From Cryomorphaceae bacterium (lineage in GTDB: Bacteria; Bacteroidota; Bacteroidia; Flavobacteriales; ECT2AJA-044), in NCBI GenBank assembly GCA_017798125.1, contig CP059070.1:1488001-1552000 (forward strand): 64,000 nucleotides of DNA, read 5' to 3'. A program made the translations under genes and the position numbers. The number at the start of each line of letters is the position of its first letter. The stretch's first letter is position 1. The notes under the pieces are model-generated. The model did not search any database. It was not told the DNA's origin and saw nothing but the letters and a program-made list of their open reading frames with translations. Below, piece after piece: positions 7,278 to 21,060 of the stretch.

Positions 7278-8204
7278 ATGAAACTGAAACACCGCATACT
7301 TCTTCTTTTAGCCGTCTTCTCCTCTACCACCTTTTTTGGACAACTATATGCAGGTCCTGCAGACGGCCGACTCTTGCCAAACAGGAGTGAAAAGGGACTA
7401 TTCTGGAAGGTCGAAAAAGAGGGAATGTCCGAACCCATTTATTTATTCGGGACGTATCATTTACTCAACGACGGTTACCTAGAAAAGTGGCCAGCAGTTC
7501 TTAAAGCCTATGACCAATCGAGCTCCATTTTGGTCGAAACAGAAATCGATAGTTCCCAAATCCCGGTGGCTCTTAGTATCGGTATGATGACAGATCAGAC
7601 TCTTCAAGTACTTCTGGATTCTGCCGACTATTTCTTAGTTGATCAAGAGGTTCAGACTACTATGCATATTCCCCTTTCACAGCTGAATCAAATGAAACCC
7701 ATGATGGTCGCTATGGCCCTGACCATTGCTTACAATCAAGCAGCCTTTCCTGAATTGTCTGATATTCCGGGCATACCCATGGATGTTTATTTCGCATCAG
7801 AAGGCCATAAACGAGGGAAGAATGTTCAAGGTTTTGAATCTATGATAGAACAGAGTCATATGGTTTACGACAGTGTATCAATTTCAGATCAAGCTACTGA
7901 TTTGGTCCAATTGGTATTAGATAAAGACGAAGCTGTAGAGGTTACCGAGGCCATTATTGAAGCTTATAAAAGCAATGACTATTCGGCTATAGAGCGAATG
8001 GAAAAAAAGGACATGGATCATTGGGGCTCCATTGACCACCTTCTAGAAGACCGAAACGACAGGTGGGTGAAGCAAATTCCCCAAATCGTTCCTAACGGGG
8101 GAGCTTTTATTGCTGTGGGCGCAATGCACCTCGTCGGTTCACGCGGACTGGTTGAGCAATTGAGGAGCCAAGGGTATAGCGTACAACCCATACCAGTTCA
8201 ATGA
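7278..8204 (+). CDS. TraB/GumN family protein
   Basis: A protein of about 308 residues in the TraB/GumN (Tiki-like) family, whose members are thought to be metalloproteases, by analogy with Tiki. It has an N-terminal signal peptide, the GTYHLL motif soon after it and a second GAMHLVGSRGL motif near the C-terminus; these two GxxH/GxxxH elements are the proposed metal-binding sites. The ATG at 7278 is preferred over the 7233 start because it begins the signal peptide (MKLKHRILLLLAVFSSTTFFG). The stop overlaps the sigma-factor start (ATGA), which ties it to an envelope-stress type regulon. Confidence 0.85.
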   Translation: MKLKHRILLLLAVFSSTTFFGQLYAGPADGRLLPNRSEKGLFWKVEKEGMSEPIYLFGTYHLLNDGYLEKWPAVLKAYDQSSSILVETEIDSSQIPVALSIGMMTDQTLQVLLDSADYFLVDQEVQTTMHIPLSQLNQMKPMMVAMALTIAYNQAAFPELSDIPGIPMDVYFASEGHKRGKNVQGFESMIEQSHMVYDSVSISDQATDLVQLVLDKDEAVEVTEAIIEAYKSNDYSAIERMEKKDMDHWGSIDHLLEDRNDRWVKQIPQIVPNGGAFIAVGAMHLVGSRGLVEQLRSQGYSVQPIPVQ

Positions 8205-8677
8205 AGAATAGGGCAGAGTTCGAGCTGTTAATTTCCGAGAATCGCGGAATCATTTTTAAGGTGATTCGACTCTACGAAGAGCGCGAGGAGGAAGTCAAAG
8301 ATCTATATCAGGAAGTTTTACTTCAAACGTGGAAGTCCTTTCACTTGTACAAAGGTAAAAGCAAGTTCGGAACATGGCTGTATCGAGTCACCTTGAACAC
8401 TGTTCTTACGCACCGTAGAAAGGAAGATCGGAGAACCTTGACCCGCCCTTTTAATGAGTCCGAGGAATTCACTGAAGAAGCTGATAGAAACGAAAGAAAA
8501 GAAGCGCTTTGGGGCGCAATTCGCTGCCTCAATGAGTTGGACAGAGCATTGATTTCTCTGCACTTTGACGGGTATGATTACAGTGAAATCGGTGAAGTAT
8601 TGGGTTTACAAGCCTCTAATGTTGGTGTACGCCTCCACCGGATAAAAAAGAATCTTAAAAAGATCATGAAGCCATGA
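8201..8677 (+). CDS. ECF-type RNA polymerase sigma factor
   Basis: A 158-residue sigma-70 family protein with only regions 2 and 4. Region 2 spans about residues 10-75 (KDLYQEVLLQTWKSFHLYKG, then GTWLYRVTLNTVLTHRR). Region 4 is a C-terminal helix-turn-helix (YSEIGEVLGLQASNVGVRLHRIKK) at about 125-152. It is coupled to the gene before it (ATGA) and to the gene after it (ATGA), so TraB/GumN, sigma factor and a membrane protein are made together. The downstream membrane protein is the natural anti-sigma candidate. Targets unknown; the TonB receptor that follows has its own promoter. Confidence 0.92.
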   Translation: MKNRAEFELLISENRGIIFKVIRLYEEREEEVKDLYQEVLLQTWKSFHLYKGKSKFGTWLYRVTLNTVLTHRRKEDRRTLTRPFNESEEFTEEADRNERKEALWGAIRCLNELDRALISLHFDGYDYSEIGEVLGLQASNVGVRLHRIKKNLKKIMKP

Positions 8678-9309
8678 GTGACGACAATAATAGTTGGATC
8701 GATAATCTAGGCGATGAAATAGATCGTGACTTAAAAGAAGTATGGGCGAGTCTTTCTGAGGAAAAGGAACAAGCTATGGACGTACAAGAAATAAAGAGAT
8801 CCAAACATCCAGTACAACATCTTCGACGCCAAATGGGGCTCAAAACCCTCTACTTTGCCTTGGGTATTGTAGCCATCATAATCATGCGGTTTGCTACGCA
8901 GAACGATTTGAGTCGAACGTTGATGGACATTGTCATCGTCAGTTTCATAATCTGTGGAGTTTACATAGCTGTGGTCTGGCAACGCCTACCTCGTTGGATA
9001 GACCCAGAGTTAAATGTTCGAAGTACTTTGAAATCAGCGTACCGACGAACGAAGCTTGCGCTGAGGATTGAAGAGGGAATGGGGCTTTTTCTCTATCCTA
9101 TTGCTGCCGCTGCCGGAATGTTATGGGGTCGGGAATTGCGGGACCCTTCGCTTGCCGTAGATCAAGATATAGATTGGATGATTCTACTGATGGTAGTCGT
9201 GGTGGTTACCCCATTAAGTCATTTCGCCGCTGTTTGGATGAATAAGTGGGCCTTCGGTAAATATTTGAAGCGTTTAGAACGCATGTTAAGCCAGTACTCT
9301 GAAAAATAA
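8674..9309 (+). CDS. Four-helix membrane protein, candidate anti-sigma factor
   Basis: A 211-residue protein that I do not recognise by family. It has a charged N-terminal region of about 55 residues, then four predicted transmembrane segments at roughly 57-74, 83-102, 137-153 and 169-189, and a basic C-terminal tail. The cytoplasmic N-terminal domain plus membrane part, and its 4-base overlap with the ECF sigma gene, fit an anti-sigma factor. It lacks the HxxxCxxC zinc motif of ZAS anti-sigma factors. The role is inferred from position only. Confidence 0.6.
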   Translation: MSDDNNSWIDNLGDEIDRDLKEVWASLSEEKEQAMDVQEIKRSKHPVQHLRRQMGLKTLYFALGIVAIIIMRFATQNDLSRTLMDIVIVSFIICGVYIAVVWQRLPRWIDPELNVRSTLKSAYRRTKLALRIEEGMGLFLYPIAAAAGMLWGRELRDPSLAVDQDIDWMILLMVVVVVTPLSHFAAVWMNKWAFGKYLKRLERMLSQYSEK

Positions 9310-19917: not shown

Positions 19918-20439
19918 TTGCTCAGCCTAATTATTTTCTTTTTAGGGACGTATTGGGAGGCTGCTATGGATAAAATTGCCAGTCCTCATCATTATCGTTT
20001 ATCCACTTGGCATACACTTGCCGCATTCTTTGATCGCAAGGGAATGCACAGATTGGGTGAGTCCTTTTGGAATAATGAAATTGCGTGGAGGAACAAATGG
20101 AAGAATGGAGACCCGAGTGAAGGAGAACGATTCTGGGGAAGCAGTCATATTTTTGCTTCGTTCACAGACGGATGGCATGTTGTTAAGCTGCTTTGGATCT
20201 TTCACTTTATTGCCGCAATTGTTTTTTATTCTCCGATTTTTCCAAGCATTCTTTTAGACTTTGGACTATACTTCTTTACTCTGGCCGTTGGGCATCACAT
20301 TTTCTTCCTATACCTTCAGAACAAGAGTTGGAAAAAAGACATCCCTCATTTATTCTCAAATATTTTCAGCAATTCGAAAAGGATCGGTGGACGAATAGGA
20401 GAGGAGGTGAATAAAAAGAAACCGCACAAGCAGGCTTGA
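19918..20439 (+). CDS. Hypothetical membrane protein
   Basis: A 173-residue protein that I cannot assign to a family. It has an N-terminal hydrophobic segment, a soluble stretch rich in Trp and His, and two predicted helices at about 87-106 and 113-133. The TTG at 19918 is used because it includes the first hydrophobic helix; an ATG at 19966 would remove it. The last codons lie in copy 1 of the duplicated block next to ssrA (20426-20508), so the C-terminus may have been altered by that duplication. Confidence 0.5.
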   Translation: MLSLIIFFLGTYWEAAMDKIASPHHYRLSTWHTLAAFFDRKGMHRLGESFWNNEIAWRNKWKNGDPSEGERFWGSSHIFASFTDGWHVVKLLWIFHFIAAIVFYSPIFPSILLDFGLYFFTLAVGHHIFFLYLQNKSWKKDIPHLFSNIFSNSKRIGGRIGEEVNKKKPHKQA

Positions 20440-20508
20440 CTCGCGGAAAAAAAACCCGCTGACCTTTCGGTAAACGGTTTGCTCGTGACTTTTGTGGAGG
20501 TGGTGAGG
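20426..20508 (+). repeat. Imperfect direct repeat beside ssrA, copy A
   Basis: About 83 bases resembling 20615-20702. Shared blocks include CTTGACTCGC, AAAACCCGCT, CGGTAAACGG and TGTGGAG-TGG. It holds its own hairpin with a T-run on the minus strand, and ends in a degenerate match to the tmRNA 3' end (TGTGGAGGTGGTGAGG against TGTGGAGCTGGCGGGG). The stretch 20440-20614 shows no gene. Confidence 0.7.
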
Positions 20509-20573
20509 ATAGCGCTTCATCGCTTCGCTCCTCTGGCGTGGTCTGGGGGGCGCCCCAAAAGGGATCCGTGAAC

Positions 20574-20586
20574 GGCCCGTCGGGCC
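20574..20586. repeat. Hairpin related to the CATC-hairpin family (no CATC foot)
   Basis: GGCCC, loop GTC, GGGCC. It has the same 5-bp stem and 3-nt loop design as the dispersed family but lacks the CATC foot, and lies between the two ssrA-side repeats. Confidence 0.35.
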
Positions 20587-20614
20587 TACAGCGCCTTTTT
20601 CATTTCGAACTCGT

Positions 20615-20702
20615 ACAAGCAAGCTTGACTCGCTTAAAAAGAAAAACCCGCTTACCTTACGGTAAACGGGTTGCTTCATTTTATTCTGTGGAGCTGGCGG
20701 GG
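20615..20702 (+). repeat. Imperfect direct repeat beside ssrA, copy B
   Basis: Second copy of the block. It contains the functional tmRNA terminator and the first bases of the tmRNA 3' end. Confidence 0.7.
20637..20672 (-). terminator. Terminator of ssrA
   Basis: The stem pairs 20645-20656 with 20661-20672 (one C-A mismatch) around TTAC. The minus strand continues with a U-rich run. Confidence 0.85.
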
Positions 20703-21060
20703 CTCGAACCCGCGTCCAAACAAGTAACAGACATGCTTTCTACGCGCTTAGTCGCGTTTGATTTTCGAGAATGCGCCGGAAACCCGACGACCAACACATT
20801 CCTTAGTTTCTAAATTTTCGATTGACGCCCGAAACGGTTGCGTCTCTCTATCATCGTTTGTTATGATGATCCGGTGGGGTCCGCGTACGATGAAAACGTA
20901 AGCCCCTGGATCAAAGGCATCTAATACCTGGTATTAGGCTGCCAAAGCGTAATTAGTCTCGCCAATTACAAAAATTGAGTCTTGAGATTTACGAGCCAAA
21001 AACACAATGCTCGGCGTGCTTACATGACCACTATCTCGCTGTCAAAACCAAATCAGCCCC
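20689..21060 (-). ncRNA. ssrA: Transfer-messenger RNA (tmRNA)
   Basis: Rescues stalled ribosomes and tags the unfinished protein for proteolysis. The 5' end GGGGCTG pairs with CAGCTCC at the 3' end to form the 7-bp acceptor stem (one G-U), followed by discriminator A at 20689. The T-arm GGTTCGAGCCCC is present. The tag frame runs from 20963 down to the TAA at 20936-20934 and encodes GETNYALAA, a member of the GExNYALAA tags of Bacteroidota. CCA is not encoded. The mature length is about 372 nt, in one piece. A full promoter lies at 21091-21121 and a terminator at 20637-20672. Confidence 0.96.

Follow-up and report, generated by a model that had tools for sequence, protein, structure and literature searches.

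A doubled repeat 3' of ssrA, read as a remnant array of gene-less units found at tRNA and tmRNA ends

Islands specific to ssrA, the tmRNA gene, are described from Dehalococcoides. They stand in tandem downstream of ssrA. Direct repeats of the ssrA 3' end, 20 bp long, mark their boundaries, and a short conserved motif lies just before each repeat. The islands are large and gene-bearing; some units are without an integration module, and the integrase of that module, DsiB, is compared with Ccr proteins (PMC3146451, excerpts). Flexible islands and tycheposons anchored at tRNA genes are large and carry cargo genes, according to excerpts of PMC10872708.

The window analysed here is a 64,000-nucleotide stretch of a Cryomorphaceae bacterium genome. 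Its ssrA gene is followed by two imperfect repeats, copy A (distal) and copy B (proximal), with 106 bases between them. By their sequence, the 106 bases and copy B together appear as a decayed member (E1) of a gene-less family, named E here, and copy A as a truncated second member (E2), preceded by a copy of the tmRNA 3' end that has decayed. We consider it probable, at about 0.6, that the block is the remnant array of a mobile gene-less element that occupies tRNA and tmRNA 3' ends and is explained by site-specific recombination.

As far as the excerpts of PMC3146451 describe them, the Dehalococcoides islands have tandem units and repeats of the host 3' end in common with E. They are large, gene-bearing and ssrA-bound, whereas E measures ~170-190 bp, is gene-less, has a predicted fold and a terminator, and occurs at many tRNA genes; a restriction to ssrA does not hold for E, which is found at many different tRNAs. 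The excerpts of PMC10872708 describe no folded, gene-less unit, and those of PMC2864571 list other Bacteroidetes motifs. Among the titles and abstracts listed by searches of an open-access collection, none described such a unit.

Integron cassette arrays consist of tandem units separated by structured attC sites. E resembles them in its tandem units, its recombination-site-like separators and its strong predicted structure, and an array in the congener G001 includes a Gp49/HTH gene pair. In contrast, E is anchored at the tRNA or tmRNA 3' end, its closing stem encloses three hairpins, and no IntI gene is tied to it. Intrinsic terminators of tRNA operons are a hairpin and a T run right after the tRNA. 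In E, too, the first of the hairpins, with its T run, stands right behind the tRNA, but this terminator is one of several hairpins within a closing stem that starts at the tRNA 3' end. No family tested takes E without a failed feature. In the way it works, E resembles a unit of integration at tRNA ends, equipped with a terminator of its own.

The ssrA locus in the window and in a congener

Local alignment of 20400-20560 with 20560-20760 gave a score of 82 for blocks A (~20420-20503) and B (~20608-20697); the maximum among 2000 dinucleotide shuffles was 30. (Laxer scoring stretches A to ~20508 and B to ~20702.) Since ssrA lies on the minus strand (20686/20688-21060), both blocks are 3' of it. 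Predicted folds place an intrinsic-terminator-like hairpin in each block, in the reading direction of ssrA. The repeats and hairpins pointed out in an earlier, sequence-only reading are therefore real features of the locus. That reading also took copy A to end in a decayed tmRNA 3' end. This holds as well: the stretch aligns with the ssrA end (14 of 18 identical, by eye), and at this distal core copy the window's own ssrA end outscores all 36 swapped flanks (rank 0/36). Elsewhere in this genome, tRNA-Ala(GGC) has a third copy of block B on its 3' side (82% identity, E-value 5.2e-15). Among curated RNA families (Rfam), ssrA (tmRNA) alone matches across the window.

E1 scores 33.3 bits against covariance model R1 (E-value 3.0e-4 genome-wide, 1.3e-5 in loci). 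Its closing stem is decayed: a model-free arm test finds none, with 26 of 36 swapped flanks equal or better. E1 aligns full-length with the units of G001; copy A matches just their first part, and for that reason is taken as a second E unit, cut short (Table 1). The 106 bases are gene-less, as had been stated, but are not empty filler: they are the rest of a recurrent element. What had been proposed as a scar is consequently best read as a two-unit E array. The G001 counterpart of the convergent ORF adjoins the E2 copy there.

Table 1. Features of the ssrA region, in window coordinates
Feature	Position	Strand	Basis
ssrA, tmRNA gene, tag GETNYALAA, insertion-site host	20686..21060	-	ARAGORN 20688-21060; Rfam RF00023, 135.8 bits
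Proximal core, T-loop A58 to tmRNA 3' end, intact, within ssrA	20687..20704	-	Sequence; boundary as in other members
Putative element E1: terminator hairpin and further hairpins, closing stem decayed	20557..20681	-	Covariance model R1; alignment with G001 copies
Predicted terminator hairpin P2 of E1, serving ssrA; T run 20642-20646	20645..20672	-	Fold; coordinates by eye
E1 linker and distal hairpin P5, ends GCGCTA before core copy	20511..20556 (approximate limits)	-	Alignment with two G001 copies
Distal copy of the core: a tmRNA 3' end, decayed, 14/18 against ssrA	20493..20510	-	Sequence; aligned with G001 core copies
Putative E2, truncated: terminator hairpin and part of next hairpin, most of copy A	20423..20492	-	Aligns to the initial part of both G001 units: score 62 for E1, 60 for E2
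Convergent ORF, 173 aa, no Pfam match	19918..20439	+	Last codons overlap E2 remnant by coordinates

Comparison of the locus between congeners rests on one genome, G001, which differs from the uninterrupted two-repeat arrangement of the window. Contig C85 of G001 carries the left-flank genes of the window in the same order, ending in an E unit bounded by tmRNA-end copies; beyond this unit lie further core copies and the Gp49/HTH pair, which looks like a toxin-antitoxin system. On contig C14 an E unit of its own follows ssrA; a core copy and an ORF with no Pfam match come next. The sides of C85 and C14 that would face each other thus hold the Gp49/HTH pair, core copies and ORFs with no Pfam match. 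Because the ends of the island are on separate contigs, we infer the join of C85 and C14, and with it foreign DNA between the E unit of ssrA and the left-flank E of G001. (One of the C85 core copies is of tRNA-Ala type, by eye; this copy and a unit with an internal deletion, beside the Gp49/HTH pair, occupy 7813-7851 and 8587-8713 of locus L229.)

Layout, fold and distribution of the element

The layout of E was recognised at many genes on reading the 3' flanks of 30 tRNA genes. E is gene-less and, with its core, ~170-190 bp long. A complete copy starts at the mature 3' end of a tRNA or tmRNA gene and supplies the terminator of that gene. From the tRNA 3' end the order is: closing-stem arm 1; the terminator hairpin with its T run; a long hairpin; a third hairpin; closing-stem arm 2; a C-rich linker; a T-arm-like hairpin; and a copy of the tRNA 3' end, the core copy. 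The tip of the long hairpin is often AGCTTGCT or a near variant, and inside the long hairpin the T run is base-paired to an A run that comes after it. In the predicted fold the closing stem encloses three hairpins, exactly three inner hairpins being present in 14 of 17 copies.

This structure was obtained by per-copy folding and a seed model; RNAalifold, applied to an ordinary MAFFT alignment of 17 copies, found no more than 4 pairs. In a model-free test, a closing arm pair beat every swapped flank at 18 of 64 flanks of G000 and its congener G001. The usual layout is present in 16 of these 18 (9/37 in G000, 7/27 in G001); L060 and L178 ranked 0 with a different layout and were left out of the 16. 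Among 29 model-aligned copies, seed excluded, 94% of closing-stem cells are paired versus 59% when shuffled, and double changes number 135 versus 33, in an alignment fitted to the model and with related rows unthinned.

Wobble pairs were counted as GT against AC. All helices together gave 117 : 38 in 82 elements, and 101 : 33 after thinning to 65. By helix, the terminator hairpin (37 : 1) has the bias expected of RNA, and the long hairpin a weaker one (31 : 12). The closing stem, with 340 Watson-Crick pairs, 9 GT and 6 AC, has no significant bias and no RNA-type wobble sign. The count says RNA for the terminator hairpin and perhaps for the long hairpin, in a test that cannot separate folded single-stranded DNA from a double-stranded inverted repeat. 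Since the bias is confined mainly to the terminator hairpin, no RNA role is claimed for E, and the idea that its whole fold acts as RNA was dropped. An Rfam scan of 16 loci at E-values up to 1 placed only tRNA and tmRNA above the gathering score; sub-gathering matches, some of them over E, were to Thr_leader, Leu_leader, isrK and AaHKsRNA41.

A covariance model built from four copies recovers further copies, the E1 of the window among them. At E-values up to 0.1 it matches in 7 of 60 relatives. At E-values up to 0.001 it matches in 54 of 395 genomes of the order, 10 of the 34 genomes behind named loci, and 9 of 296 genomes of the phylum. The family is patchy, yet extends to other classes. Orthologous-looking tRNA ends, matched by eye, differ between G000 and G001 in having E.

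Three sets of matches were checked with ARAGORN, L277 of one set and L322 of another being the same locus. In the first, 12 of 20 loci have the end of a same-strand tRNA or tmRNA at the match start; by eye, seven of the remaining eight come after a 3' fragment of a tRNA or tmRNA, or after a gene that is interrupted, and L199 follows neither. The second, drawn mainly from the upper part of the order-wide list with genomes already read left out, has 36 of 44 matches starting within 8 nt of such an end. The third has 11 of 13 at such an end. Over the three sets, 59 of 77 matches start at a tRNA or tmRNA end, and 18 have no ARAGORN gene there. Some of the 18 (L199, L328, L330 and the third match of L292) are without any tRNA fragment. 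L297, in the second set, is a reverse-strand match by eye.

Core copies, arrays and recombinases

Of 79 elements, 36 have an exact copy of the tRNA 3' part, at least 8 nt long, downstream; among 768 swapped pairs, 52 do. The copy starts at T-loop A58 in 18 cases and at the base before it in 4 (22/36 together). A few of these matches represent something other than core copies: L066 involves a neighbouring tRNA, and L279 and L303 have odd starts. The flank-swap test gave nine rank-0 matches, two of which (L066 and L181) are a neighbouring tRNA-Leu. In the remaining 43 elements an exact core copy of 8 nt or longer is missing, which is read as decay, although a looser process would leave the same. 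Direct-repeat and arm tests at one set of tmRNA loci found nothing convincing outside the genus; inspection by eye shows an E-like hairpin next to a stretch of N at L103, which has a weak model match (E-value 0.22).

E shares several traits with integrative elements of tRNA and tmRNA genes: the host gene is restored, and its 3' end recurs as a direct repeat at the distal boundary; the sublocation within the gene is fixed, at A58 or one base earlier; and close relatives are polymorphic, both at tRNA ends of G000 and G001 and in the ssrA region. An integrase encoded by the element is the trait that E lacks, being too short for one.

E also occurs in tandem, in units of 172-187 bp with core copies in between. 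L316, at a tRNA-Pro, holds four units and one degenerate unit; L304, at a tRNA-Val, three units of 172 bp. L293 and L315 are further arrays. L310, in a one-contig genome, has two units at ssrA and is a close parallel of the window. At a tRNA-Met, G001 (L177) has an extra unit relative to its G000 counterpart (L060), followed by a core copy and then a unit resembling the first of G000. The sequence-only reading had offered tandem duplication as its simpler alternative, and these arrays make it part of the picture.

Longer DNA may separate the units. In Phaeocystidibacter luteus LMG 25704 (G041; named through L096, whose genome gave identical match places), a tRNA-Val with E is followed by ~6 kb, and then by the 3' part of a tRNA-Val with E; the ~6 kb contain a Phage_int_SAM_5 integrase fragment. 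On contig C70 of G001, E lies behind an apparently broken tRNA-fMet, with an integrase gene and a phage tail gene as its neighbours. (L230 7650-7720: the apparent tRNA-fMet, just before E and the integrase gene, is without the anticodon-to-T-stem stretch, which may be a true break or a fault of the assembly.) In two of the loci read, L225 and L230, E has an integrase gene or fragment next to it; many units have no integrase within the stretch examined, mostly ~1-3 kb. L228 (3020-4993, contig C34 of G025) has two E units 1.7 kb apart, each after a tRNA 3' fragment by eye, with two ORFs between them that have no Pfam match.

A phage origin was rejected on a comparison of two E regions with 50,697 phage records: none covered 80% of the query, and the best 10 of 235 and best 10 of 35 matching records match the tRNA part only.

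A XerA/IntI-like recombinase of 415 aa, with an extra N-terminal part, is encoded at L239 853-2100 (G000:C1:2599589-2600833). It falls below the TIGR02249 cut-off. At E-values up to 1e-60, 71 of 395 genomes of the order have matches to it, several with in-frame stops. It is present in 15 of the 54 E-bearing genomes versus these 71 of 395 overall (odds ratio 1.96, Fisher p = 0.055), leaving 39 E-bearing genomes with no match at that threshold. Given this weak co-occurrence, it is not claimed as a dedicated recombinase of E, nor was any other recombinase tied to the element.

Readings of the array and a proposed mechanism

Instead of a mobile unit, E could be a host-serving 3' trailer and terminator of tRNA genes under selection, its arrays made by slippage or unequal crossing-over with no recombinase. 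E does supply a terminator, whose hairpin has the wobble bias of RNA; its fold is kept while stem sequence varies; and the near-identical adjacent units of L304 and L316 look like recent tandem duplications. A fold conserved at many tRNAs would also fit a host-serving structure spread by other means. However, slippage predicts scattered boundaries, and the A58 start recurs across various tRNAs and in more than one genome. Core copies have foreign DNA and integrase genes between them or at their side; orthologous-looking tRNAs of the congeners, matched by eye, differ in the presence of E; and most of E is past the terminator, so it should be absent from the normal tRNA transcript. This trailer is therefore rather unlikely. 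More tenable, yet still doubtful, is the suggestion that one large island once stood at ssrA in this lineage and was excised, with copy A as its old distal att site. The order of copy A, core copy then remnant, fits, and in G001 foreign DNA does lie between the two E units, albeit on two contigs whose join is our own. The sequence-only reading was thus right in the kind of event, and an island between the repeats has its likeness in a relative. In the window itself nothing points to a former island, and a two-unit array with no island, such as that at ssrA in L310, explains it equally well.

The strong predicted fold also raises the question of whether E recombines as a folded single strand, in the manner of integron attC sites, with tRNA 3' ends as the receiving site of a cassette array. 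The near-perfect closing stem has little wobble, unlike an RNA stem, and the G001 array has its Gp49/HTH pair between core copies. Yet attC is a single imperfect hairpin, an architecture that E does not have, and the IntI-like protein tracks E weakly; we regard this as quite improbable. Least credible, indeed very improbable, is a transposon-derived miniature element, of MITE or REP/BIME type, that prefers tRNA neighbourhoods. E is short, gene-less, multi-copy and palindromic, as such elements are. But its closing-stem arms differ from copy to copy while remaining complementary, which leaves no conserved terminal repeat for a transposase, and 59 of the 77 matches start at a tRNA or tmRNA end.

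Under the preferred reading, a mobile E at tRNA and tmRNA ends, units and islands would enter by site-specific recombination in the T loop, for which tyrosine recombinases from islands or prophages would be the simplest agent. With each entry the host gene would receive another terminator and another copy of its 3' end, and would thereby keep working, while the older unit would move outward. In the window, E2 would be the older unit, now reduced to copy A and run into the neighbouring ORF, and E1 the newer; base changes in the core copy would be later decay. A bolder extension, which we think unlikely, is an undescribed cassette system of Bacteroidota: tRNA and tmRNA 3' ends would be the anchors; a recombinase acting in the T loop would capture folded E in tandem; and genes such as toxin-antitoxin pairs would be carried between units, making an integron-like platform spread over many tRNA loci.

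A local oddity thereby becomes a family with a testable rule: a tRNA end at the start, and a copy of the 3' end of the same tRNA at the finish. If units and islands do swap at T-loop A58, many tRNA genes serve as repeated landing sites with their ends and terminators intact. The model is also a simple search tool for islands and array scars; in the present genomes several of these are close to contig ends, where they are easily missed.

Later searches found E at ssrA of other genomes, at L307, L310 and L217. At L217 (613-834, minus strand; contig C236 of G002, a genome of the order) a group I intron (RF00028, 96.7 bits) interrupts the ssrA gene within its T arm. The intron has a LAGLIDADG-like ORF, and an E unit stands directly after the second ssrA exon.
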